In this document: piece after piece, positions 4,901 to 39,756 of the stretch
How the letters are laid out: each line of letters begins with the position of its first letter
How positions within the stretch are numbered: position 1 is the stretch's first letter
DNA from: Bacteroidota bacterium
Lineage (GTDB): Bacteria; Bacteroidota; Bacteroidia; Palsa-948
NCBI GenBank assembly: GCA_003164895.1
Contig: PLUL01000023.1
Coordinates: forward strand, 1-45,426
Length of the DNA stretch: 45,426 nt
Direction: 5' to 3'
Made by a program: the position numbers and the translations under genes
Notes under the pieces: generated by a model
What the model saw: only the letters and a program-made list of their open reading frames with translations
Databases searched by the model: none
What the model was told of the DNA's origin: nothing

Positions 4901-7335
4901 TTTGCGGTGGACGCAATTGTTGCAGAATTATCCGCAGGATTTTTTGTTTCATGAACAACAGCAGCAGAAATTTTTGTTTCTTTCGGTTCTTCCGTTTTTG
5001 ATAACGCAGCAGTTTTTTCAGACGAATATTTTATCTCTTTCAGCACAGAAGCTTGGAGTGCTGCATTGTTCTTGATAGAATCAGCTTGAGATTTTAATTT
5101 TGATGCTTGCGAATTATACGACTCTGCATTTTTCTTTTTTGCGTCAATTTCTTTTTCAATTTCTCCCGCCTGCTGTATCAAATTTTGTTTCACAGCATCA
5201 TTGTTAGATTTGTCCGCTTCAGCTCGCAAGCGTTTTGATTCGCTTTGCATGTCTTCCACATCCTGCTGAGAATCCAAAAATTTTGCCATCACTTTATTTG
5301 CATCCGTTTGTTTTACCTGCGCCATTTTGTTCATGTCAGGCGGAAAAGAAACATTCAAGCTATCGTTCTTCTTATCTAATTTTTCTTTTTGCGCCAAGAG
5401 TTCGTTCATCTTTTTTTCGTTTGCACCTGATTTAATTGCGGTCTCTAAATTTTTAGAGTATTTTAATTCTTCATCTGCCGTTTCTTGTTTTGCTTTTGCC
5501 AAATCATCCATCTGATTGGAAAGTGTTAACGACACAGCAGCTTCTTTAGAAAGTTCCTGAGATTCTTTTCTTAATTGCACCGATTTATCTATCTGCGTTA
5601 ATTTCTCTTCCTGATTTGTATTCGTCTCAGCGGATTTCATCAACTCGGTGGCTTCTTTGTTTTTTTGCAGCGACAATTCATTTTTCTGATTTGCTAATTG
5701 CTGAGCGGCATCCGAATTTTTCCGCATCTCGTTCACATCTTTCTGAGTTTCTTTTGCATCCTGATAAGCTATGGCAATGATGTCGGTATTTGTAACCGGT
5801 TCAGCTTTCTTGGTTTCAGTTTTCGTTTCGGTTTTAGTTGCAGAAGTATTTTCTTCCACTGCTATGGCTGTGATTTCCTGTTCGGCAGGAGTAATTTCTA
5901 AAGATGCTTTTGCTTTGATATATTGCACCGCAAGCGCAAGGTCAACACTGTCAACCTGAGAATCGAAATCATTTTTAATTACAACTTTATCTTGTCCATT
6001 TTCATTCACAAGATTCAGCTGCTGCTTCAAAAGTTTTATTTCCTGCTGCGTTGGAATCACCACCAGTTCAGAAGATTTCTTAAATCCTGAAGATTCCACC
6101 GTGAACATAAATTTTCCACCGTTGGGAAGATTAAGCGCGTATGAACCATCGGAAGAATTTGAATTGAACACGCCCACCACTTCGCCTTTTGCAAGTTTGC
6201 TGACTGTAATCTTCGCGTTCGGAACTTTATCGCCCACTTCTTTTGCGAGTGTTCCTTTTACGATTGCAATATCCAGCGGCTTGCGCTCGAGTTTAATTTT
6301 GTAAACAGAAATATTTCCTTGCGCGCTTTCTCTTCTCGAAGAAAAATAAGCGGTTTTATCTTCAGCATCAGAAATAAAAAGTATGTCATCATCAGGAGTA
6401 TTGATTGCGAAATCCATATTCACCGGAGTGCCCCACGAATTTGTTTTATCATCCCATTCACTTTTAAAAATATCATAGCCGCCCATGCTATTATGTCCTT
6501 TAGAACAGAAATAAAGAATCTTTCCGTTGGGATGCAAGAACGGATAATCCTCATCGTATTTTGTGTTGATGACATCGCTCACGCGGACGGGTTTGCTCAA
6601 ATCTCCGCTTGGCGTACGAGTAACATAATAAATATCCCTGCCGTTCTTTCCGTCTTCACCATAGCTGGAATAATAAATTTGGTTTCTGTCGGGCGCGAGG
6701 TACATCACGCTCTCATCTTTTTTCTTTTTATCTATGGAAGTTTTCAATTCATCGGGCTTAACAACAATCTTAGAATTGAACTCAGAAAGATTATACGAAC
6801 GGAAAAAATCTGCCGATGGCACTTCTTTTTTTTCCAGAACAGAAAGTTCAGTAACATTTTTCAGAAGACGCATTCCGTTCTGGCACATTTCTATTTGTCT
6901 ATCCACATCAAATCTCTCCGCAAATCTTGACGACACCATGCCTTTGTACATTGTGTAAACCCGAATGGCATCGGCAAAACGGTAATTGAGATGATACGCC
7001 TTGGCAAGAAAGAAAAAAACTTCCTTATCCACGCCTGATTTCTGCCTCTTTGCCGCAAACTCAATGTATGGAATTGCCTTCCCTTTATCGTTGCCGGCAA
7101 AAAGCAAACAGGTTCCGAATTTATAATTGTACTGTGGGTCTTTTGGATACAAACTCAACAACTGCGAAAAAAGCGGATATGCTTTTACATAATCTTCTTC
7201 CTCAAAAAGTTTGTTCGCCTGTTTTTTCATATCCTCTTCGGAGGAATAAACATTTTGAGCAGAAAGATTAAATGCCAATAGCCAATAGCCAATAGCCAAT
7301 AAAACGGTAACATTATAAAAAATCCTTCGCCTCAT
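1918..7335 (-). CDS. Giant periplasmic TPR / beta-propeller / coiled-coil / triple-SPOR protein
   Basis: An 1805-residue exported protein. A signal peptide (about 1-26, ending LSAQN, no lipobox) is followed by TPR-like helices (30-150) and PD40/WD40-like propeller strands (about 185-350; YLAPDRNQIYYSSYGEDG, HPNGKILYFCSKGHNSMGGY). Next comes a carboxypeptidase-regulatory-like fold (355-430; NSSDGSYALNLPNGG). A very long Lys/Glu/Gln coiled coil with Thr/Ser-rich linkers occupies about 480-1450. Three SPOR-type repeats end it (about 1463-1540, 1590-1663, 1713-1795), each opening with FKVQIGAF or a variant and ending near NGKRIS. SPOR domains bind denuded peptidoglycan. The order TPR-propeller-CRD matches the front of PorE-type T9SS proteins, which end in OmpA-like domains instead. 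The exact role is unknown. A (GCCAATA)4 repeat lies in the signal-peptide codons. Confidence 0.8.
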   Translation of the reverse strand: MRRRIFYNVTVLLAIGYWLLAFNLSAQNVYSSEEDMKKQANKLFEEEDYVKAYPLFSQLLSLYPKDPQYNYKFGTCLLFAGNDKGKAIPYIEFAAKRQKSGVDKEVFFFLAKAYHLNYRFADAIRVYTMYKGMVSSRFAERFDVDRQIEMCQNGMRLLKNVTELSVLEKKEVPSADFFRSYNLSEFNSKIVVKPDELKTSIDKKKKDESVMYLAPDRNQIYYSSYGEDGKNGRDIYYVTRTPSGDLSKPVRVSDVINTKYDEDYPFLHPNGKILYFCSKGHNSMGGYDIFKSEWDDKTNSWGTPVNMDFAINTPDDDILFISDAEDKTAYFSSRRESAQGNISVYKIKLERKPLDIAIVKGTLAKEVGDKVPNAKITVSKLAKGEVVGVFNSNSSDGSYALNLPNGGKFMFTVESSGFKKSSELVVIPTQQEIKLLKQQLNLVNENGQDKVVIKNDFDSQVDSVDLALAVQYIKAKASLEITPAEQEITAIAVEENTSATKTETKTETKKAEPVTNTDIIAIAYQDAKETQKDVNEMRKNSDAAQQLANQKNELSLQKNKEATELMKSAETNTNQEEKLTQIDKSVQLRKESQELSKEAAVSLTLSNQMDDLAKAKQETADEELKYSKNLETAIKSGANEKKMNELLAQKEKLDKKNDSLNVSFPPDMNKMAQVKQTDANKVMAKFLDSQQDVEDMQSESKRLRAEADKSNNDAVKQNLIQQAGEIEKEIDAKKKNAESYNSQASKLKSQADSIKNNAALQASVLKEIKYSSEKTAALSKTEEPKETKISAAVVHETKNPADNSATIASTAKNESTNPPINNSTTSPLVIKSDYVNVFVNQMHDAEKKPKEIDKQESLAVIYQSWTDSLDKQISSLKKQIASELVDERKTQIQNKIYELQSSVEDKRQKAADSRNKVDNLKLQEALAAASIISPETKTTSTNTVATANPETASTATVSPENITGTKNINNYFETKLKGNEKVTNEYEKKKNEQELYNDWSATLYDESQRLKKDGKDGKADEVEKESKKKQSLAMQSADKVTEIKAEHPELVAAATKTSTEKTSVKSSETKTESITQPISAVTTTVSPETTVSTNTITATHPAETSDTKTVTATNPVTTSSSVKTESTNPTTTQPTSSTTTPIVSDSVKKMPEYTRYTSLKNEADWNKKHADWQYKQADDAQKLGDDQLKESKNISQKSSEASDPNVQNVLKLQADDLKKKSIHNHSKADSLRNLAEVSQADANSKRRASALYLQSLDKTKYEKIASATGYKTASTQTINANNETSNTENKPGTKTETTNPVTNSSTEPHTSSTSTVTPRESTTVVAIYDEKKQPVSATNTTIVTPETTAVVPTNTVSATHPSETSSTSAKTETPIQSKNNSASASEKSETKNPVTNTTASTANNKTETTNNSPVIHQPANTSSTATNQARPNAALLKYYDALFDKLEVAGGSYSAAKPIPVDAPMPEGLIFKVQIGAFKNTIPQNLFKGIKPITSENTPQGFKRYTAGIFPKFETANNAKNQIKGLGYRDAFVVAFFNGKRISINEALSKAKDAGETIDLAAVNNTENAKINSINEPETHIATATDVKSVSGLFYAIQVGVFSKQVSANQLYNISPLNSEKTDNGLIRYTTGRFDDEIKANKAKSSIAGKGISDAFVIAYFNGKRISLSAAKTLIDSQGKNVLSKDKQEYTFVPSDTTTSESSALALTTASNKGIVFKVQVGAFKEQVPIDIANKLLANSSKGIKTFKDENGLLVYTIGEFLEYETANNLKTQSVNNGLSGSFVIAFKDGKKMSAADALDQIKNK
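7274..7301. repeat. Heptanucleotide tandem repeat (GCCAATA)x4 in signal-peptide codons
   Basis: Four perfect head-to-tail copies of GCCAATA on the plus strand, without interruption. They lie in the coding strand of the giant SPOR protein and encode its hydrophobic signal-peptide core (LLAIGYWLLAFN). Seven is not a multiple of three, so gain or loss of one unit would shift the frame about 15 codons after the start. Confidence 0.93.
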
Positions 7336-12979: not shown

Positions 12980-14344
12980 TCAAAACTTCAATCGCTTAGA
13001 CACATAATTGAATCTCAGGAAAAGAGAAATAGCTGCCAACGTGAGAGCGATGGTAAGTCCGTACCAGATACCCTGAACTCCGAATCCAAAAATAAAAGCA
13101 AGCGCATAACTGCTCGGCAATCCGATAAGCCAATAACACACAAGCGTTATCACCGTAGGAATATTTACATCCTTCATTCCGCGTAGCGAGCCAAGCGCTA
13201 CCACTTGGATGCCATCGGAAAGCTGAAAGAAAGCAGCAATCAATAAAAGCGAGGCAACAATTTTCTGCACTTCGGGTTCATCGTTAAAGAAAGTTGGAAA
13301 CGTAAACCGAAGCAAGACAAAAACTATTGCAAAGAAAATTTGCGTGGTAATTACAATTGCAAACGCACTGAATGCCGCCTGACGAAGTGAAGGAATATTT
13401 TTTTCTCCCAACTGATTTCCTACACGCACACTCGCTGCCGCGCTGATTCCGCTGGCAATTAAATAAGTCATTGCGGCAAGCTGCAAAGCGATTTGATGCG
13501 CTGCCTGTTCGCGTTTTCCGATCCATCCTATCATCACTAATGCGAAAGCAAATGCTCCCACTTCAAAAACCCATTGCAGTCCCGAACCGGCGCCAATGCT
13601 GAATATTTTTTTCATCCGTTCTAAAGAAATACTTTTGAATGCAAGAGCTTGGCGGTATTTTCTAAAATGTCGGTCGTAATAAATATAAAGGAACATGGCG
13701 ACCGCCATTGCCAGCCGAGAATAAAATGTTGCCCAGCACGCGCCCATCATTCCCATAGCAGAAAAACCAAATTTTCCGTAGATAAGAATATAATTCAGCA
13801 ATACATTCAGAAGATTTGTTCCGATGGTAATGATCATAGCAAAACGAGTGAACGACAATCCTTCGGCAAACTGTTTGAAGGAAGCAAAGATTGCAAGCGG
13901 AATCATTCCGAGCATCATCACGTTGAGAAAAGGAATGGCAAGCGCCACCACATCCTTCGGCTGATCGAGATGACGCATGAGCGGAGAAGCAAAAAAAAGA
14001 AAAAGAAAAAGAAAAACATTTGTAATCACATTCACAATGAGCGCATGACTGAGAAGTTTTTTATTCTCACTTACGTTACCTATACTATCGGCTTCGGCAG
14101 CAAGCGGTGTAACTCCATACGAAACTCCCATGCCGAAAACAAGAACCAGAAAATAAAAACCGTTGGCAAGCGACACTGCCGCCTGCGCGGTGGTGCCGCT
14201 GTAACCCGCAACGCTTTCTTTAATGCCGCCCACCATGGCAATATCCACCACGCCCACCATCACATTGCCAAGGTTGCTCAGGCACACGGGCCATGCAAGA
14301 AGAATGGTTTTGCGAAAATGTTCTTTAAAATTCTTTGTGAGCAT
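12980..14344 (-). CDS. MATE family efflux transporter
   Basis: A 454-residue protein with 12 predicted membrane helices in two homologous halves. MVGVVDIAMVGGIKESVAGY in helix 1-2 and GMGVSYGVTPLAAEADSIGN in the helix 2-3 loop are typical of NorM/DinF-like MATE proteins, which exchange Na+ or H+ for cationic drugs or metabolites. Length is normal. On the minus strand a TATCTTCG box (14352-14359) lies 7 nt before the ATG, with TTG 17 bp further upstream, a plausible promoter that reaches into the first unit of the adjacent 21-bp array. Confidence 0.92.
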   Translation of the reverse strand: MLTKNFKEHFRKTILLAWPVCLSNLGNVMVGVVDIAMVGGIKESVAGYSGTTAQAAVSLANGFYFLVLVFGMGVSYGVTPLAAEADSIGNVSENKKLLSHALIVNVITNVFLFLFLFFASPLMRHLDQPKDVVALAIPFLNVMMLGMIPLAIFASFKQFAEGLSFTRFAMIITIGTNLLNVLLNYILIYGKFGFSAMGMMGACWATFYSRLAMAVAMFLYIYYDRHFRKYRQALAFKSISLERMKKIFSIGAGSGLQWVFEVGAFAFALVMIGWIGKREQAAHQIALQLAAMTYLIASGISAAASVRVGNQLGEKNIPSLRQAAFSAFAIVITTQIFFAIVFVLLRFTFPTFFNDEPEVQKIVASLLLIAAFFQLSDGIQVVALGSLRGMKDVNIPTVITLVCYWLIGLPSSYALAFIFGFGVQGIWYGLTIALTLAAISLFLRFNYVSKRLKF

Positions 14345-14368
14345 AAGTTTGCGAAGATAATAGAATGG

Positions 14369-14852
14369 AGTAAGCTCAATTTAAACGAAGCCAATATCAA
14401 TTTTTGTCAGAGTGAGCTGAATCCGAACCAAAGTGAGTTGAATCGGAACGAAAGTGAGCGTGATTTATGTCAAAGCAAGCTGAACCCGAGCGCAAGCAAG
14501 CTAAATCTGGGTATGCCGATACCTGATCGGCAGTAAACCAAGCTCAATCACTGTTAAAGCAAGCACGATTGGAGCAATAGCGAGCTCGATCCGTGTAAAC
14601 CGCGCTCACTTTGGGGCAAATCATGCTCACTTTGCAATAAATCCTGTTCACTTTGGGTTAGATCCTGTTCAAGTTGACCTCAAACCTGCGTGCCCGCAGG
14701 CAAATCATACTCATGTAGGTTTGGAAGTGTATTGCTTTGGGTTGGGTTAGTATTGTTTTAGGTTGAGACCTGCCTGCAGGAAGGCTGGTTAGTATTGCTT
14801 TGTCTCAAGTCATGTTCACTTTGGATTGAGACCTGCCTGCCGGCAGGCAGGT
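14369..14852. repeat. Degenerate array of 23 units, about 21 bp each, filling the intergenic region
   Basis: From 14345 to 14948 there is no gene I accept. The space is filled by units that begin at 14369, 14390, 14411, 14432, 14453, 14474, 14495, 14516, 14537, 14558, 14579, 14599, 14620, 14640, 14661, 14682, 14703, 14725, 14747, 14768, 14789, 14810 and 14831. All units are 20-22 bp. Left units carry AGTGAGC or AGCAAGC followed by YRAAYC on the plus strand; right units carry the complement, GCTCACTTTG. No identical repeats and no spacers are present, so it is not a CRISPR array. Units at 14682, 14768 and 14831 are GC-rich palindromes of the same length. Confidence 0.85.
14831..14852. repeat. 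Perfect 22-bp GC-rich palindrome
   Basis: The half-site ACCTGCCTGCC is followed immediately by its exact reverse complement, giving a 22-bp perfect palindrome in otherwise AT-rich DNA. A decayed relative occupies 14768-14788, a shorter hairpin (CCTGCG TGCC CGCAGG) lies at 14685-14700, and a four-mismatch copy lies at 18570-18591. It ends the 21-bp array in phase with it. It lies about 65 bp upstream of the methyltransferase promoter box. Confidence 0.9.
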
Positions 14853-14918
14853 GTGGTTTGTTCTTATGAAAAAGAAGGAGAGTTGATTAACAAAGAATAA
14901 AGAAAAGAAGATAAAAAG

Positions 14919-14926
14919 TATATTTG
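14919..14926 (+). promoter_or_regulatory. Candidate -7 box (TATATTTG) upstream of the methyltransferase remnant
   Basis: An exact TANNTTTG match 22 bp before the ATG at 14949, implying a leader of roughly 15-18 nt. No TTTG lies at the usual -33 distance. If active, it would still transcribe the HNH nuclease gene downstream. Confidence 0.45.
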
Positions 14927-14948
14927 TTGCGTATATTGAATTCAGATA

Positions 14949-15185
14949 ATGGAAGTATTTTCAGATTTATATCTTGGTGATAGCAAAAGGGAACTTAAAA
15001 AACTCCCAAACAATTCCATTGATCTCATTGTAACTTCCCCACCATATGCAGACCAAAGAAAAAACACTTATGGCGGTATAAACCCTGACGAATATGTTGA
15101 TTGGTTCTTACCAATATCAGAACAACTCTTAAGAGTGTTGAAACCAACAGGAACTTTCATTCTAAATATTAAGGAAAAAATTTGA
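14949..15185 (+). pseudogene. Truncated site-specific DNA methyltransferase (N-terminal 78 residues)
   Basis: The fragment reads as the start of a beta-class N4-cytosine/N6-adenine DNA methyltransferase. It has an N-terminal YLGDSKRELKKLPNNSIDLI strand, catalytic motif IV TSPPY at about residues 30-34, then ADQRKNTYGG and a strand ending FILNIKEK. The reading stops right there. The rest of the enzyme, including the AdoMet-binding FxGxG motif that follows in this class, is absent in all frames; instead an HNH gene begins two bases later. The product cannot be an active methyltransferase. It looks like one edge of a replacement or deletion event. Confidence 0.85.
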
Positions 15186-15186
15186 A

Positions 15187-16116
15187 ATGAGTTACGAAGG
15201 TGAAATGCTCAAAGATTTGGCAATGCCAAGTCGAAAAGAAGTTGAACAAGTTTTACTGAAAATTTTATTTAGGCACAATGGAGTAATAAAAGAGTTTGCC
15301 TCCGGTGAGGAAATTGTGAATGAAATTGCTGACGAATTTCATTTAAAGAAGAATCAAAGAACTGCTGTATTAGAAAGGATTTACCGCAAAGAAAATAGAA
15401 TTGTAAAAACACCACTTTGGCATCGTTTACTTTATCGTGCAGCAGATTCATTAGCAAAAGAAAAATTTGTTTCAAGACCGACCTCAACAATTCTGCTTAC
15501 AAATAAGAAAGAATGGATGCTAACAGAAAATGGTTTTGATGAAGCATTGAAGATTTTGAACATTCCAAAAACACAAAAGGAATTTCTTTCAACAAAATCT
15601 TATGAGGTTCAAAAAGTCGTAAAGAAATTAATTGCAACACCAAGACCAGAAAACTACAATCCATTTGATAAAGAAAAGAAAGTTGCAAAGATTACAAGGG
15701 AATCAGCAATTAGAACAAGAGGTTTTCGTCAAGCAGTTATTGAAGCTTATGATTACAAGTGTGCTTTTTGTGGAATGAAATTAAATTCTTTAACTGATAA
15801 GAGTTGGGAAGTTGAAGCTGCACATATTGTTCCCCATAGTGAAAAAGGGAAAGATGATATTTTAAATGGCTTGTCTCTATGCCACTTGCATCATTGGGCA
15901 TTTGATGCTGGCTGGTTTGCACTACACGATGATTTTACAATTCAAGTTTCCCTAAAAGTAAATTCTTTGCCTTCTGACTTTGGTAGAATGGGTGATTTTG
16001 ATTTCATTAGAATATTTTCCAATAAAAATTCAAAAATATTTCTTCCAAAAAGAAAAGAAATTTACCCTCATCAAAAGGCAATTAGTTGGCACCGTGAAAA
16101 TAAATTCTGTTATTAA
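15187..16116 (+). CDS. HNH endonuclease, restriction type, with N-terminal winged-helix-like domain
   Basis: A 309-residue protein. The N-terminal half (about 10-110) looks like a winged-helix DNA-binding domain as in Mrr-like restriction proteins (EVEQVLLKILFRHNGVIKEF, then a segment ending WMLTENGFDEAL). The C-terminal half carries an HNH nuclease: KCAFCGMKL (zinc CXXC), EAAHIVPHSEKG (first His), DDILNGLSLCHLHHWAFDAG (Asn, second Cys/His pair and final His). The catalytic residues are all present, so the enzyme looks intact. It starts one base after the methyltransferase fragment stops, and its cognate modification enzyme is not visible, so it may target modified DNA or be an orphan. Confidence 0.88.
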   Translation: MSYEGEMLKDLAMPSRKEVEQVLLKILFRHNGVIKEFASGEEIVNEIADEFHLKKNQRTAVLERIYRKENRIVKTPLWHRLLYRAADSLAKEKFVSRPTSTILLTNKKEWMLTENGFDEALKILNIPKTQKEFLSTKSYEVQKVVKKLIATPRPENYNPFDKEKKVAKITRESAIRTRGFRQAVIEAYDYKCAFCGMKLNSLTDKSWEVEAAHIVPHSEKGKDDILNGLSLCHLHHWAFDAGWFALHDDFTIQVSLKVNSLPSDFGRMGDFDFIRIFSNKNSKIFLPKRKEIYPHQKAISWHRENKFCY

Positions 16117-16129
16117 AACATTTTTAAAG

Positions 16130-16321
16130 ATGAAAAACAATAAAATTATTTATTCCCTAAACGAAAACGATATTCAGACAGTAGCTTTTCAAGAATTAGA
16201 AAGAAATTTATCTTCACATGAAATAGAAAAAATAAAAAATTCTATTGCTGAGAAAATAAACTGGTATGACGCAATTGCTGATTCAATAAATGAAACCATT
16301 GGGTCACAAGCAGAATCTTAG
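16130..16321 (+). CDS. Small acidic protein beside restriction genes, function unknown
   Basis: A 63-residue ORF starting MKNNKIIYSLNENDIQTVAF and containing LSSHEIEKIKNSIAEKINWY followed by DAIADSINETIG. The pattern of a short strand, a helix and a W-Y-[DE]-A-I helix recurs in small proteins I recall from Bacteroidota accessory regions, with no known function. It starts 13 bp after the HNH gene stop and is read in the same direction, so it is likely co-transcribed. It could be a small partner of the nuclease, but nothing in the sequence proves that. Confidence 0.62.
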   Translation: MKNNKIIYSLNENDIQTVAFQELERNLSSHEIEKIKNSIAEKINWYDAIADSINETIGSQAES

Positions 16322-16605
16322 TAGAAATAAAAAGCTGTTATTACGGCAGAGATAACAAATCGGACAAAGGTGATTATTACAAATATTGCGGTCAACAGTT
16401 TTGGGAATTTGTTTCTGGCGATCCAACTCTTTACACCGAACTAATCGAACCACTTGGACATAAAGCAAAAGAGCGCAATGATGATTTTTTGAAATCTTAT
16501 TCGCAAATGCTTAACAAATTCACAAAAGAATTTACTACGGATTTTTGTAAAAAGAATGGGGAAATTGATTGGGACAAATTAGTGCGTTTTAATTCCGCGA
16601 AATAA
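16294..16605 (+). pseudogene. 3' remnant of a type II restriction endonuclease (PmeII-like)
   Basis: An open stretch without a start codon. Its first in-frame stop upstream is at 16291-16293. It encodes SCYYGRDNKSDKGDYYKYCG, then QQFWEFVSGDPTLYTELIEP, LGHKAKERNDDFLKSYSQML and DWDKLVRFNSAK, ending at a natural stop. From memory this is the C-terminal third of PmeII-family restriction endonucleases. No part of the N-terminal two thirds lies upstream; the small ORF occupies that place and overlaps the first bases. It is the other edge of the damaged restriction-modification locus. Confidence 0.78.
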
Positions 16606-16614
16606 AATCAAAAA

Positions 16615-16640
16615 TACAGATAGGGAATTTTGAATCTGTA
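16615..16640. terminator. Possible small hairpin between convergent units
   Basis: TACAGAT (16615-16621) and ATCTGTA (16634-16640) are exact inverted repeats with a 12-base loop. They lie between the restriction remnant (plus) and the LTA-synthase-like gene (minus). The stem is AT-rich and lacks a run of T, so termination is only a weak suggestion. Confidence 0.25.
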
Positions 16641-16660
16641 CAACGACAGCCCGTGATTCT

Positions 16661-18547
16661 TTAATAATCCGAATACTCCTGAAACATAGTTTCCAAATAA
16701 CTTTTCCCTTCTTTTTCTAAGCGGGATTTTTCAGCAGGAGAAAAAGTTTTTTCAAACATAAAATTATTGTTTGGGTGTGAGTAAACCAAATATTGTCCCG
16801 GTCGCACCCATCCAAAACCATCGGAAGTTTCGTAAAGCGCAAACTGAGAAGTGTATGGATTTAAAAGATTCTTGCTCCAAGTATATTTTTTTGAAGAAAT
16901 TCCCATCTGATTCAACAGCGTGGAAGCCAGATCAAGCTGCGAGCCAATCTTTTTATAGCGGTAACCGCGGAACTCATCCTTGATTACATTTCCATAGAAC
17001 ATCATTGCAATTTTTCTGTACTCCGGCTGCTGCTGAACCCAATGTTTTGGCGAGCGGTGGCTGTGATCGGAAACAAAAACAAAAAGCGTGTTGTCATACC
17101 ATTTTTCTTTTTTCGCATTCTGAATGAATTCAAAAAGTTGCTGATCGGAATACCGGATAGAGTTCACATAATCATTTTCATCTCCGCCCCATTTCACTTT
17201 ATCTTTTTCCGCCATCGGCATATCATAAGGCGAATGACTGCTGAGCGTGAACATGGCAGCGAAGAAGGGCTGCTTTTCGTTTTTTAATTCCTGCAATTGT
17301 CGCGCAAATAAATATTCATCGTGCACGCCCAATTTTCCCTGTGGAATTTTGCTATCAAAATCTTTTCCTTCTAGAATGCGGTCGAAATTATTGTAATACA
17401 TATACGCCTTGATGTTTCCATAGCTCAACTGTCCGCCAAACAAATAAGAAGTTTTATATCCTGCGTTGTGAAACTCGGTGTTAAGACAAGGCAGGTGATT
17501 ATATTTTCCCGGCTGACCGATAATAGAAGTTCCCGAAGGCAAAGCCGGAAACGCGCTGAAGATGGCGGTCATTCCCTGATCCGAAAGATCTCCGCTTGCG
17601 TAAAGACTGTCGAACATAATTCCCTGCTTACCGAGTTCGTCAAAATGAGTTGCAGCGCTGTCGTAGCCACCCAAAGATTTAATCATATCACCTGACCAGC
17701 TTTCAAGAATTACAAGAACAATATTCGGGCGATTAGTTTTCAGAAAAGAAATGGTTGTATCCTTTTCAGTTTTATAAATTTCATCAACTGTTTTTTTCGC
17801 TTCAGGCAGAGGAAAATAAATATACGGATTACCTTCCGTATTCATTCTGTTTTCCCAAATGCTTTGCCCCAGATTCCATCCTGAATTCACCGAAGCAAGG
17901 TTCAACACATTGTGTTTTGAAAAGTAAGCATCGCTCTGCTGAATGGGAATCTGTTGAACTCCTCCGCGAATTCCAAGCGCAAGAAGAACAGGAATAACGA
18001 TAATGAAAAGAAATACGATTACATATTTTTTAAACCCTTTTGTCTGAGAAAATGAATCGAGCGGAGCAAACGGTGAAATCTTTTTGTAAAGAAAAAATCC
18101 TGCGTAAGTCAAAAGAGCGGCTGCTATCAATCCGAAAATTAAAAAAGAAGTAGAAGTTGAATTTATCACTTCCATTGGATGCTGAAGAAAGCGAACGCCT
18201 TTGATGGTAAGTTTCGTTCCCCATTCTCTGTAAGTTTTAAGTTCTGTAATTGTTATCAGAGAAAACAACGCAAGCAGAATCAGGATGTAACCGGAATGAA
18301 TTGCTGAAATAAGTTTTTTCGGAAGAAAGGAGTAAATAGAAAATATCAAAAATGAGAATCCAAGAAAGTAACACGCCATGGAAGTATCAAGATAAAGCGC
18401 CTGCCAAAACGTGGAAATAATTTCTCCTATCGAAACTCCTTTGAGTTCATCCATATTATAGAGAATAAAAATACTGCGGCAAATAATAAAGAAAACGATC
18501 CAGAAAAGATACTGACGCATAATTGTTATGAATGGATTTTTAAGCAT
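16661..18547 (-). CDS. LTA-synthase-family membrane phosphotransferase (sulfatase fold)
   Basis: A 628-residue protein: five N-terminal membrane helices (about 1-200), then a large periplasmic sulfatase-type domain. Active-site features of LtaS/OpgB-like enzymes are visible: NIVLVILESWSGD (metal-binding Glu), SDQGMTAIFSAFPALPSG (nucleophile Thr after QGM, matching QGKT of LtaS), FTLSSHSPYDMP (His), and VFVSDHSHRSP (Asp-His). The enzyme should transfer a phosphoglycerol or similar group to an envelope glycan. Bacteroidota lack lipoteichoic acid, so the acceptor is unknown. I use ATG 18547; an upstream TTG (18559) lies inside the -7 box TACCTTTG (18557-18564). Confidence 0.87.
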   Translation of the reverse strand: MLKNPFITIMRQYLFWIVFFIICRSIFILYNMDELKGVSIGEIISTFWQALYLDTSMACYFLGFSFLIFSIYSFLPKKLISAIHSGYILILLALFSLITITELKTYREWGTKLTIKGVRFLQHPMEVINSTSTSFLIFGLIAAALLTYAGFFLYKKISPFAPLDSFSQTKGFKKYVIVFLFIIVIPVLLALGIRGGVQQIPIQQSDAYFSKHNVLNLASVNSGWNLGQSIWENRMNTEGNPYIYFPLPEAKKTVDEIYKTEKDTTISFLKTNRPNIVLVILESWSGDMIKSLGGYDSAATHFDELGKQGIMFDSLYASGDLSDQGMTAIFSAFPALPSGTSIIGQPGKYNHLPCLNTEFHNAGYKTSYLFGGQLSYGNIKAYMYYNNFDRILEGKDFDSKIPQGKLGVHDEYLFARQLQELKNEKQPFFAAMFTLSSHSPYDMPMAEKDKVKWGGDENDYVNSIRYSDQQLFEFIQNAKKEKWYDNTLFVFVSDHSHRSPKHWVQQQPEYRKIAMMFYGNVIKDEFRGYRYKKIGSQLDLASTLLNQMGISSKKYTWSKNLLNPYTSQFALYETSDGFGWVRPGQYLVYSHPNNNFMFEKTFSPAEKSRLEKEGKSYLETMFQEYSDY

Positions 18548-26453: not shown

Positions 26454-29400
26454 GTGGAATCAGCATTTAATATTTCTTCGTTTCTGAAAACATATTTCGG
26501 AGATGAAAGAGTATTGTCTGTTTCGAAATTTTTGGATGAGAACAAATCAATTTCAATCAAAGGTCTTGCGGGTGCATCCGCTTCTTTTATCATTCGCGCT
26601 GTTGCAGAAAATAAATCGGGAATTCATCTTGTCGTTCTTCAAGACAAAGAGCAGGCAGCTTACCTTCTTAACGATTTGGAAACTCTTGGCGCAAAAACAT
26701 ATTTCTTTCCATCTTCCTTCAAAAAGCCATTCGATATTGAAGAAAGTGATACACCATCTATTCAACTCCGCGCAGAAGTTTTAAATGCGATTCGTCAATC
26801 CCAGCCCAATTCCAACACATCAACTTTTATTGTAACCTATCCTGAAGCGATTGCCGAAAAAGTAATTTCAAAAGAACATCTTGAAAAGAATTCCATTGAA
26901 ATAATTAAAGGGGAAAAGATTTCCTTACAGTTTCTTGAAGACCTTTTAAATGAATACGGATTTGAAAGATGCGATTACGTAATTGAACCCGGACAGTATT
27001 CGATTCGAGGTGGAATTGTTGACATATTTTCTTTCGCTAATGACGCCCCTTTTCGTATCGAACTTTCGGGTGATGAGATTGAATCCATCCGAACTTTTGA
27101 TACCGTAAATCAACTCTCACTTCAGAACTTTGAACGCGCTGCAATTCTTCCCAATATTCAGGAAAAAATAGAAAAAGAAAATGCTTCTTCAATTATAGAA
27201 TATATTATTGATAACCAGAAAGATAAAGAAAGTAATATAACAATTTGGATTAATAATATTTCTTACACGATCAGCACAATAGAAAATGGACTGAAAACCC
27301 TGACGGAAACTTCAAATCCGGAAATCGAACAAAGGATTCCTGACCTGTTTATCAGCGAAGCAGAACTTCAAAATATTTTTATAAAAAATCCGGTCATTGA
27401 ATTTGGAAATTCATCGTCAAAAATTTCGGAAGGAGAAGTTGTTTTTAATTTTTCACCACAACCTGATTTCAATAAAAATTTCGATCTTCTTTTCAGCAAT
27501 CTGAATAAATTATCTTCTGATGGATTTGCCAATTTGATTCTTTTTGACAACCCAAAACAGCTTGAACGGCTTCGCGCAATTTATGAAAGTATTTTTCCTT
27601 CTTCTGCAAGCGATTTAAAAGCTCTGCCATTCAGTGAAGATTTAGGAGGAATTCACGAAGGATTTATTGACAATGAAAAAAAGATTGCTTGCTACACCGA
27701 CCATCAAATATTCGGTCGTTACCACCGGTATAAATTAAAAAGCAGCGGTTTTAAAAAGAATGAAGCTATCACAATGAAAATGCTGAAGTCGCTTCAGCCG
27801 GGAGATTTTGTAACTCACATTGATTACGGCATCGGAAGATTCGGAGGGCTGGAAAAAATTGAAGTGAACGGAAAACAGCAGGAAGCGATTCGCCTTGTTT
27901 ACAAAGACAACGACACGCTGCACATCAGCATTCATTCGCTTCACCAGATTTCCAGACATACCGGAAAAGAAGGCGAAGCTCCGCGGCTTGACAAACTCGG
28001 TTCGAATGCTTGGTCGAATCTGAAACGAAAAACAAAAAAGAAAGTCAAGGAAATTGCGTTCGACCTCATTAAACTTTATGCGGAACGAAAAGCGCAGATA
28101 GGTTTTGCATTTTCCCCCGACAATTATTTGCAAACCGAAATTGAAGCTTCCTTTATTTATGAAGATACGCCTGACCAAGTAAAATCTACTGCGGATGTGA
28201 AACGCGACATGGAAGAAAATTTTCCGATGGACAGATTGATTTGCGGAGATGTTGGTTTTGGAAAAACTGAAATTGCAATTCGCGCTGCATTCAAGGCAGC
28301 TTTGGATGGAAAACAAACTGCCGTGCTTGTGCCGACAACTATTCTTGCGCTTCAGCATTACAAAACTTTTTCAGAGCGGATGAAAGAATTTCCGGTTACG
28401 GTGGATTATATCAATCGTTTCAAATCAGCTAAGGAGCAAAAAGAAACCATCAAAAAACTGGGAGAAGGAAAAATTGATATTCTCATCGGCACGCATCGCC
28501 TGATAGGAAAAGATGTGAAGTTCAAAGACCTTGGTTTACTTATTGTAGATGAAGAACAAAAATTCGGAGTAGGTGCAAAGGACAAACTAAAACTTTTGAA
28601 AGCAAATGTTGACACACTCACACTCACCGCAACTCCGATTCCCCGCACACTTCAATTTTCGATGATGGGTGCAAGAGATCTTTCGGTGATAAACACGCCG
28701 CCGCCAAATCGTTATCCGGTTCACACCGAAGTTTCTCAGTTCAATGAAAAAATAATTAAAGAAGCAATTAACCATGAACTTCAGCGTGGCGGACAAGTTT
28801 TTTTTGTTCACAACCGCGTTCAAACCATAGGAAGATTTGCCGAGTTGATTCAAACGCTTTGTCCGAAGGCAAGAATTTTAGTAGCGCACGGACAATTAAA
28901 AGGCGAAGTGCTTGAAAAAGCAATGCTTGATTTTGTGGAAGGAGAATACGATGTGCTGATCTGCACAACTATTATTGAATCCGGACTCGATATTTCAAAT
29001 GCGAATACGATCATTATTAACGATGCCCAGAATTACGGCTTAAGCGATCTGTACCAATTAAGAGGAAGAGTCGGGCGTTCAAACAAAAAAGCATTTTGTT
29101 ATTTGCTCACTCCTCCATTTGCTTCGCTCACCAACGAAGCAAAAAAGCGTTTGAGAGCGATTGAAGAATTTTCTGATCTCGGCAGCGGATTCAATATTGC
29201 CATGCGCGATCTTGACATTCGCGGCGCGGGAAATCTTTTGGGCGCTGAGCAAAGCGGATTTATCACAGACATCGGATACGAAATGTATCAAAAAATTCTG
29301 GATGAAGCAATGAGTGAATTGCGTGAAGAGTTGGCCGTTGGCAGTATTCAGTTGGCAGACGGAAAACCACATCAACCATCAACCATCAGCCATCAACCAT

Positions 29401-38819: not shown

Positions 38820-39756
38820 GAGAAATTATTTTCTCCGCCAATATTCTCGCCATTTTTTCGCTCGATTCAAAACTCCAACCGGCAATATGAGGAGTGAGAA
38901 TTACTTTGTCGGATGATTTGAGATATTGCAAAGCTGTTGGTTGTTGGTTGTTCGCAACAGGTTGAATTAATTCAAATGAGGTTTCTTCGTATTCCAAAAC
39001 ATCCAAGCAAGCTCCAGGAATTTTTCCGTTTTTAATATTTTTTACTAAATCATCAGTTTTTATAATTGGCCCGCGCGAAGTATTGATGAGACAAATATTT
39101 TTTTTGAACCTCTTAATGAAGGAATCGTTTACCAAATTTTTCGTTTCATCTGTAAGAGGTAAATGCAGACTCAAAATATCTGCTTCGGAAAATATTTCTT
39201 CTATAGAAGATTCTTTTACAGAATCCTTTCCAAAATATTTCTTGTATTTATCGTAAGCGAGGATTTTCACATCAAATCCTCTCAGCAATTTTGCAAAAGC
39301 ACTTCCAGTATTTCCAAATCCGTAAATGCCGATTGTTTTTCCTTCAAGCTCTGTTCCACGGTTTATCTCACGATTCCATTGACCATTCTTAACTTCGTTA
39401 TTTGCTTTGGAAATATTATTTAGCACATTGAGCAACATGCCGAGTGCATGTTCTGCAACTGCATTTCTGTTTCCTTCGGGAGAACTTAGGCATTTTATTC
39501 CTTTATTTTCTGCATAAGCAACATCAATGTGTTCCATTCCGGCGCCAACGCGAGCTATGAATTTCAAATTTCTTCCAGTATCTATAAATTGTTTATCAAT
39601 ATTAATTCTACTTCGGAGAATAACTCCTTCGTATTGAGAAATCTTTTTTTCGATTTCTACTTTTGAAGAATGAAAATCTTCTTCGCAAATAAAATTATTC
39701 TTCTCCAATTCTTTTTTGAGAGAAGGATGCGCAGAGTCAAGAAAAAGAATTTTCAT
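38806..39756 (-). CDS. D-2-hydroxyacid dehydrogenase (SerA-like, short form)
   Basis: A 316-residue NAD-dependent dehydrogenase. The nucleotide site is GIYGFGNTGSAFAKLL. Catalytic and substrate residues sit in VGAGMEHIDVAYAENKGIKC, INTSRGPIIKTDDLV, CLDVLEYEE and LTPHIAGWSFESS (His). It lacks the C-terminal ACT domain of long SerA, and could act on 3-phosphoglycerate or another 2-hydroxyacid. The peptide VANNQQPTALQYL near the C-terminal end comes from a heptanucleotide repeat and replaces normal sequence. A TACATTCG box (39813-39820, minus) lies upstream. Confidence 0.88.
   Translation of the reverse strand: MKILFLDSAHPSLKKELEKNNFICEEDFHSSKVEIEKKISQYEGVILRSRINIDKQFIDTGRNLKFIARVGAGMEHIDVAYAENKGIKCLSSPEGNRNAVAEHALGMLLNVLNNISKANNEVKNGQWNREINRGTELEGKTIGIYGFGNTGSAFAKLLRGFDVKILAYDKYKKYFGKDSVKESSIEEIFSEADILSLHLPLTDETKNLVNDSFIKRFKKNICLINTSRGPIIKTDDLVKNIKNGKIPGACLDVLEYEETSFELIQPVANNQQPTALQYLKSSDKVILTPHIAGWSFESSEKMARILAEKIISLTSK
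38935..38952. repeat. Heptanucleotide tandem repeat (TGTTGGT)x2.5 in the dehydrogenase gene
   Basis: Two full copies and one partial copy of TGTTGGT on the plus strand (CCAACAA on the coding strand). They encode part of ANNQQPTA, a linker not expected in this enzyme family. The unit belongs to the same CCAWYAR pattern as the repeats at 7274-7301 and 29370-29400. Confidence 0.8.

Follow-up and report, generated by a model that had tools for sequence, protein, structure and literature searches.

The intergenic stretch at 14,369-14,852 of the window (the whole 45,426-nucleotide stretch of DNA analysed here) holds 23 degenerate units at a pitch of exactly 21 bp. Tentatively, and with something short of even confidence, we take it to belong to a class of iteron-like scaffolds, found between genes across the genus, in which half-sites related by dyads, set two helical turns apart, would be bound by a putative dimeric protein. 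The recurrence of the same strict spacing with different words suggests landing strips for pairs of DNA-binding proteins and not random stutter. The usual bacterial intergenic repeats consist of one conserved element that has spread, or of random slippage, whereas here many unrelated words lie on one exact two-turn ruler that survives the decay of the words; the arrays thus point either to a putative protein that organises the chromosome at a fixed pitch or to a new kind of mutational ruler.

Over 14,369-14,852 the identity at lag 21 is 0.464, compared with 0.251 ± 0.020 in 1000 dinucleotide-preserving shuffles (z = 10.6; shuffle maximum 0.311). A sequence-only reading had proposed a periodic array here, to be abandoned if its lag-21 identity proved no higher than in shuffled sequence; the array stands well above the shuffles and had, if anything, been understated. 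Lags 42 (0.466) and 63 (0.461) score about the same as lag 21, every other lag from 5 to 69 gives at most 0.331, and no 200-bp segment of the window scores higher for any period from 10 to 79. When the sequence is divided into 21-mers, the register does not slip through 23 units (14,368-14,850); each takes exactly 21 bp, two full helical turns, so that the strict period claimed earlier holds while the 20-22 bp unit spacing quoted with it does not. Unit-to-unit identity is only about 45%, and because the units are so degenerate Tandem Repeats Finder picks up just two fragments, 14,411-14,459 and 14,606-14,671. That low identity, along with one fixed pitch across loci, agrees with the earlier judgement that simple slippage did not make the array, and sets it apart from a slippage VNTR or microsatellite, with its near-identical units of variable length. 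Nor is it a CRISPR array, in which near-identical repeats alternate with unique spacers of ~25-40 bp; the period here is 21 bp, the core is degenerate and the linker is about 5 bp.

The array has two arms of opposite polarity, a layout that, like its palindromic units, the earlier reading had overlooked. In the left arm (14,368-14,598, forward strand) 11 units, each 21 bp long, carry the core CAAAGYNANNNGGATT facing forward, as in AAAGTGAGCGTGATT; in the right arm (14,599-14,850, reverse strand) 12 such units carry it reversed, as in TCACTTTGGGGCAAATCATGC. The left-arm words resemble AAAGTGAGCNTGATTTNNNNC and the right-arm words are their reverse complement, in register, so that the unit orientations read as 11 minus signs followed by 12 plus signs, with a single switch near 14,599. 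When the arms are split at that point their direct identity is 0.268 and their reverse-complement identity 0.421, a symmetry with Z = 5.0 that none of 500 permutations reached. The left-arm core lies at phase 2 modulo 21 in the local frame, and the right-arm core is displaced by +1 bp relative to it. A GC-rich palindrome, ACCTGCCTGCCGGCAGGCAGGT, occurs three times in the right arm, each copy filling a whole 21-bp unit in register: a variant (AACCTGCGTGCCCGCAGGCAA) at 14,683-14,703, seen in the unit layout and as inverted repeats I5 and I7; a variant of the 22-bp form at 14,768-14,789; and the perfect palindrome in the last unit, at 14,831-14,852. The 22-bp motif is also dispersed elsewhere in this genome (C23:73632, C48:18570, C1:81507), in relatives, of which one (G013) has 29 matches, and in other Bacteroidetes families.

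Beyond the last unit lies a tail (14,853-14,932, forward strand) that recurs, 74-80% identical, at arrays C71 and C44 and partly at C74. It ends in TATATTTG, which fits what we take to be the Bacteroidetes -7 promoter consensus, TAnnTTTG. Tails of about 80 bp with this promoter-like end occur here and at L063 ~16855-16937, L033 3595-3655 and L065 9040-9100; the arrays that share them, the C74 array of another family among them, adjoin unrelated genes.

A survey for periods from 7 to 70, covering 880 kb of the source genome plus about 750 kb from five relatives in the genus, detected some 26 intergenic arrays with several unrelated motifs in the ~1.6 Mb sampled from these six genomes of an uncultured Bacteroidetes genus. 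Nearly all of the strong non-coding arrays (score >= 0.55) have a period of 21, 42 or 63, the one exception being 7; the coding-called repeats of the same genomes have many periods, with no concentration at 21, 42 or 63. The search of the genome and its relatives suggested by the sequence-only reading thus found many similar arrays, with different words and the 21-bp spacing kept. Their density in the sampled stretches of the source genome is about one per 60 kb. Such arrays were essentially absent from 380 kb of four other families; five more were found in 1.4 Mb around a conserved gene elsewhere, all in uncultured Bacteroidetes. In the pyruvate:ferredoxin oxidoreductase gene the closest named relative, at 94% identity, is the genome of an uncultured Bacteroidetes from groundwater. 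An exact two-unit motif had no match in 84,980 other species. We found no description of arrays of this kind in the open literature, the ground covered by a search outside which most subscription journals lie.

Within the source genome, BLAST and pattern searches place about five dispersed arrays in one family, here called F1: that of the window and those designated C44 (beyond the end of a secA-like gene), C71, C26d and C15. They have in common the core CAAAGYNANNNGGATT, the two-arm layout where complete, and distal units or tail, and judged from their alignments they are homologous copies. The +1 bp displacement of the reversed core relative to the forward one, modulo 21, recurs in each of the four complete F1 arrays. 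Another family, with ATAACATCGTGATGTTGG, has members at C74 and C26, and a third, with ATTACAATA followed by TACTATC, at C26, C37 and C59; further arrays of the genome look unique. At the C15 contig end (G000, L036 3730-4145) the F1 fragment adjoins an unrelated 21-bp array, CACAGTCGGACATCAAACATT, which runs to the end of the contig; arrays appear to break the assembly.

Dyad symmetry in register relates the units of the arrays. When the column frequencies of each array are matched, about one fixed axis, to those of its reverse complement, the symmetry exceeds that of column-permuted versions of the same array with a combined Z of 10.4 over the 26 arrays at 21 bp. This whole-unit test is stronger than a search for palindromes within 6 bp of an axis, which gives mild enrichment (mean z 0.74). 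Three layouts of unit orientation occur: the units all point the same way, they alternate, or they switch once in mid-array. Most families other than F1 are without two arms. Conserved columns cluster (combined Z 6.5 over 31 arrays) in a way that divides each unit into a core of ~16 bp and a linker of ~5 bp at the fixed two-turn pitch. Such units, half-palindromic or inverted relative to their neighbours, would let a dimeric DNA-binding protein sit either way round, every copy facing the same side of the helix; binding might be cooperative, as a patch or filament. As each array has different words, there may be several cognate proteins, or the binder may read pitch and dyad geometry over sequence. 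Several observations weigh against a scaffold: its binder is putative, the motifs differ completely between arrays and species, and the core is not clearly better conserved than the linker between F1 paralogs (core/linker mismatch 0.22/0.38, 0.36/0.42, 0.38/0.46 and 0.28/0.15; P 0.05-0.41, one pair reversed), as it would be expected to be with one sequence-specific binder.

Of the multi-site binding or bending region proposed earlier, putative binding survives as the best remaining reading, and specific bending does not: predicted curvature of the window array is 0.62, versus 0.55 for column-permuted arrays of the same period (z 0.5), and the combined Z over 26 arrays is -0.05. A single long hairpin or cruciform is likewise rejected, the axes recurring every 10.5 bp with none dominant (0.408 vs 0.404 vs 0.396). 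The window array does fold better than shuffled sequence, with z -3.75 for one strand and -3.54 for the other, as it would if the arrays worked as structured RNA, a series of hairpins in transcripts. We consider this very improbable, as the excess self-complementarity over column permutations is equal on the two strands across 26 arrays (combined Z -8.8 and -9.1), which is what DNA dyads, rather than a transcript, predict; there is also no dominant hairpin axis, and in Rfam nothing reached the gathering score for the window array, a chance snoRNA hit falling far below it.

It is even less credible that the arrays encode heptapeptide-repeat proteins. Coding would account for a period of seven codons, divisible by three, and for the lack of indels, and open frames do run through the arrays at L048 (103 aa) and L049 (88 aa), as any stop-free 21-bp unit will give. 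Stops, however, occur in all frames of the window, C44 and C26d arrays, and the substitutions between C44 and C26d show no codon-position bias (47/44/35), which already refutes coding for family F1. The earlier claims that the window array is non-coding and that its heptapeptide frame is antisense to the MATE gene are both borne out: stops in all six frames leave none open across the whole array, and the antisense ORF (13,649-14,536) covers that gene and the left part of the array.

The strictness of the pitch is clearest among the F1 paralogs. C44 and C26d align over 280 bp without a gap and with 79 mismatches, and C44 and C71 over 347 bp without a gap and with 131, a divergence of 28-38%. 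At other in-register shifts identity falls to only 0.33-0.47, so the aligned copies are true positional homologs. In genus alignments gaps open once per 7.9 mismatches in intergenic DNA and once per 35.9 in coding DNA. The intergenic rate predicts 10-17 indels in these pairs, and the chance of none is 4.5e-5 for C44/C26d and 6e-8 for C44/C71; at the coding rate (1 per 36 mismatches) it is only ~0.03-0.1, which tells against the scaffold if a gene-like indel rate applies. Free intergenic DNA would thus hardly be expected to give such gapless stretches, and at the coding rate they are only mildly surprising, the comparisons being non-independent through common ancestry. The sole length difference seen, between C44 and C26d, is a net of exactly 21 bp, one whole unit. 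These paralogs thus show the fixed integral-turn spacing, apparently under constraint, of a helically phased array, though a mutational cause may account for it.

The main rival, which we regard as a doubtful but real possibility, is such a cause: a mutational mechanism that itself measures out two turns, leaving arrays that have no cellular function. Hairpin-assisted template switching, or unequal exchange tolerating only whole units, might be responsible, and the degenerate arrays would merely be old. Near-perfect young arrays do exist (0.95 at lag 42 in G004 L085; 0.92 in G005 L092), motifs are specific to species and array, positions turn over, neither gene end is preferred, the self-complementarity alike on both strands would suit hairpin intermediates, and the single change in length amounts to a whole unit. 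Ordinary slippage, however, yields many unit lengths, and nearly all those here are multiples of 21; moreover, unit similarity in F1 has decayed to ~0.41-0.47 while the pitch has been kept over more than 100 paralog substitutions, which a past mutational event fails to explain unless indels are unusually rare there. The phased scaffold is favoured because the pitch outlives the sequence and the dyad relations stay in register; the periods of 21, 42 and 63, the core/linker clustering and the common +1 bp offset argue for it as well, and selection rather than mutation would then keep the pitch. A broader proposal, which we rate as rather unlikely, is that the arrays, at tens per genome and with pitch and dyad geometry but not sequence conserved, are a chromosome-wide set of phased scaffolds, in a lineage of uncultured Bacteroidetes, for a putative filament-forming or architectural dimer that reads spacing and not a word.

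The surroundings of the window array bear on its mobility and on any regulatory role. To its left lies the MATE efflux transporter gene (12,980-14,344, reverse strand; PF01554, E 4e-48; ATG at 14,344), whose start and conserved leader, TATCTTCGCAAACTT, are common to relatives. A sliding lag-21 scan detects a weakly periodic start at 14,327-14,367, over the leader and first codons. A MATE-specific regulatory role is not supported. Four genus relatives have the MATE gene without an array, arrays are absent from the orthologous MATE and NSUN loci examined in relatives, and positions differ between species, which is a further point against the scaffold. A promoter-only element had been considered, given the F1 TAnnTTTG tail and the apparent promoter linkage of most of the first arrays inspected by eye. 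Arrays nevertheless lie in divergent, tandem and convergent gaps alike, facing 27 gene 5' ends and 22 3' ends over 26 arrays; with this balance and the array-free orthologous loci, they are not fixed promoter parts.

To the right, the restriction-modification scar reported earlier is real: a truncated DNA methylase (14,949-15,185, forward; PF01555, N6_N4_Mtase, profile positions 1-55 of 221) is followed by an HNH_2 endonuclease-like gene (15,187-16,116, forward; profile match). In the relative G004 the whole of 14,345-16,660 is missing and the MATE and sulfatase genes adjoin, so the array and scar here form a 2.3-kb insert. The F1 arrays might form the ends, foldback-like or iteron-like, of an element that is mobile or once replicated, the unit being a transposase or Rep site. 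In favour of this, the window array borders the insert, whole arrays have been duplicated to several loci (C44 matches C26d for 254 bp with 74% identity, E 3e-42), the two opposed arms have nearly equal unit numbers, and arrays share a tail. The proposal is improbable, as no common left end was seen, no transposase or replication gene occurs among the flanking genes tested, neither 72,556 plasmids nor 50,697 phages gave a match, and most other families have no two arms.

Among known systems, iterons, which plasmids and phages carry at their replication or partition loci, are direct, degenerate repeats of ~20 bp at a two-turn pitch, bound on one helical face. The arrays resemble them in pitch and degeneracy, and one-face binding may be a further likeness; with 21 bp x 23, the window array falls within the ~17-22 bp repeats at about two-turn spacing typical of iteron origins. 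Unlike iterons, the arrays reach ~24 units, comprise several motif families, occupy many chromosomal intergenic sites and can switch polarity. No replication initiator gene lies beside the window array, whose flanks are MATE, the methylase fragment, HNH_2 and sulfatase, and no Rep or Par gene was among the flanking genes tested. REP units consist of a single conserved palindrome of 20-40 bp, variably spaced and often RAYT-linked; REP/BIME elements share with the arrays dispersed intergenic palindromic units in alternating orientation, but lack the constant 21-bp pitch and the variety of motifs. Drosophila foldback elements have two inverted arms of short tandem units, as do the F1 arrays, but here there is no common left end or demonstrated mobility, and the layout is mainly that of F1.

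The nearest published analogues found are the Borg repeats and the TAACTGA heptamers, which differ in length rule, perfection and placement. Borg genomes have many intergenic arrays each, with array-specific motifs and fast turnover, as here; their units repeat perfectly and vary widely in length, with only 14-38% of the intergenic lengths divisible by three (PMC9879509), whereas the present units, often degenerate, almost always measure 21 bp or a multiple of it, and the arrays are thus not of the Borg type. TAACTGA repeats are also intergenic bacterial arrays, in Beggiatoaceae, Cyanobacteria and some Bacteroidetes, and in Maribeggiatoa lie mostly immediately 5' of start codons (PMC4679880); they are one 7-bp sequence, unlike the 21-bp, many-motif arrays here with no gene-start preference. 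The window itself has tandem heptamers at 7,274-7,301 (GCCAATA), 29,370-29,400 (CATCAAC) and 38,935-38,952 (TGTTGGT); seven divides 21, and period-7/14 stretches occur in relatives too. The near-perfect 21/42-bp arrays of genus relatives (0.92-0.95; L085 2825-3180, L092 12180-12590, L155 14260-14710) look recently expanded, and one has strictly alternating unit orientation.
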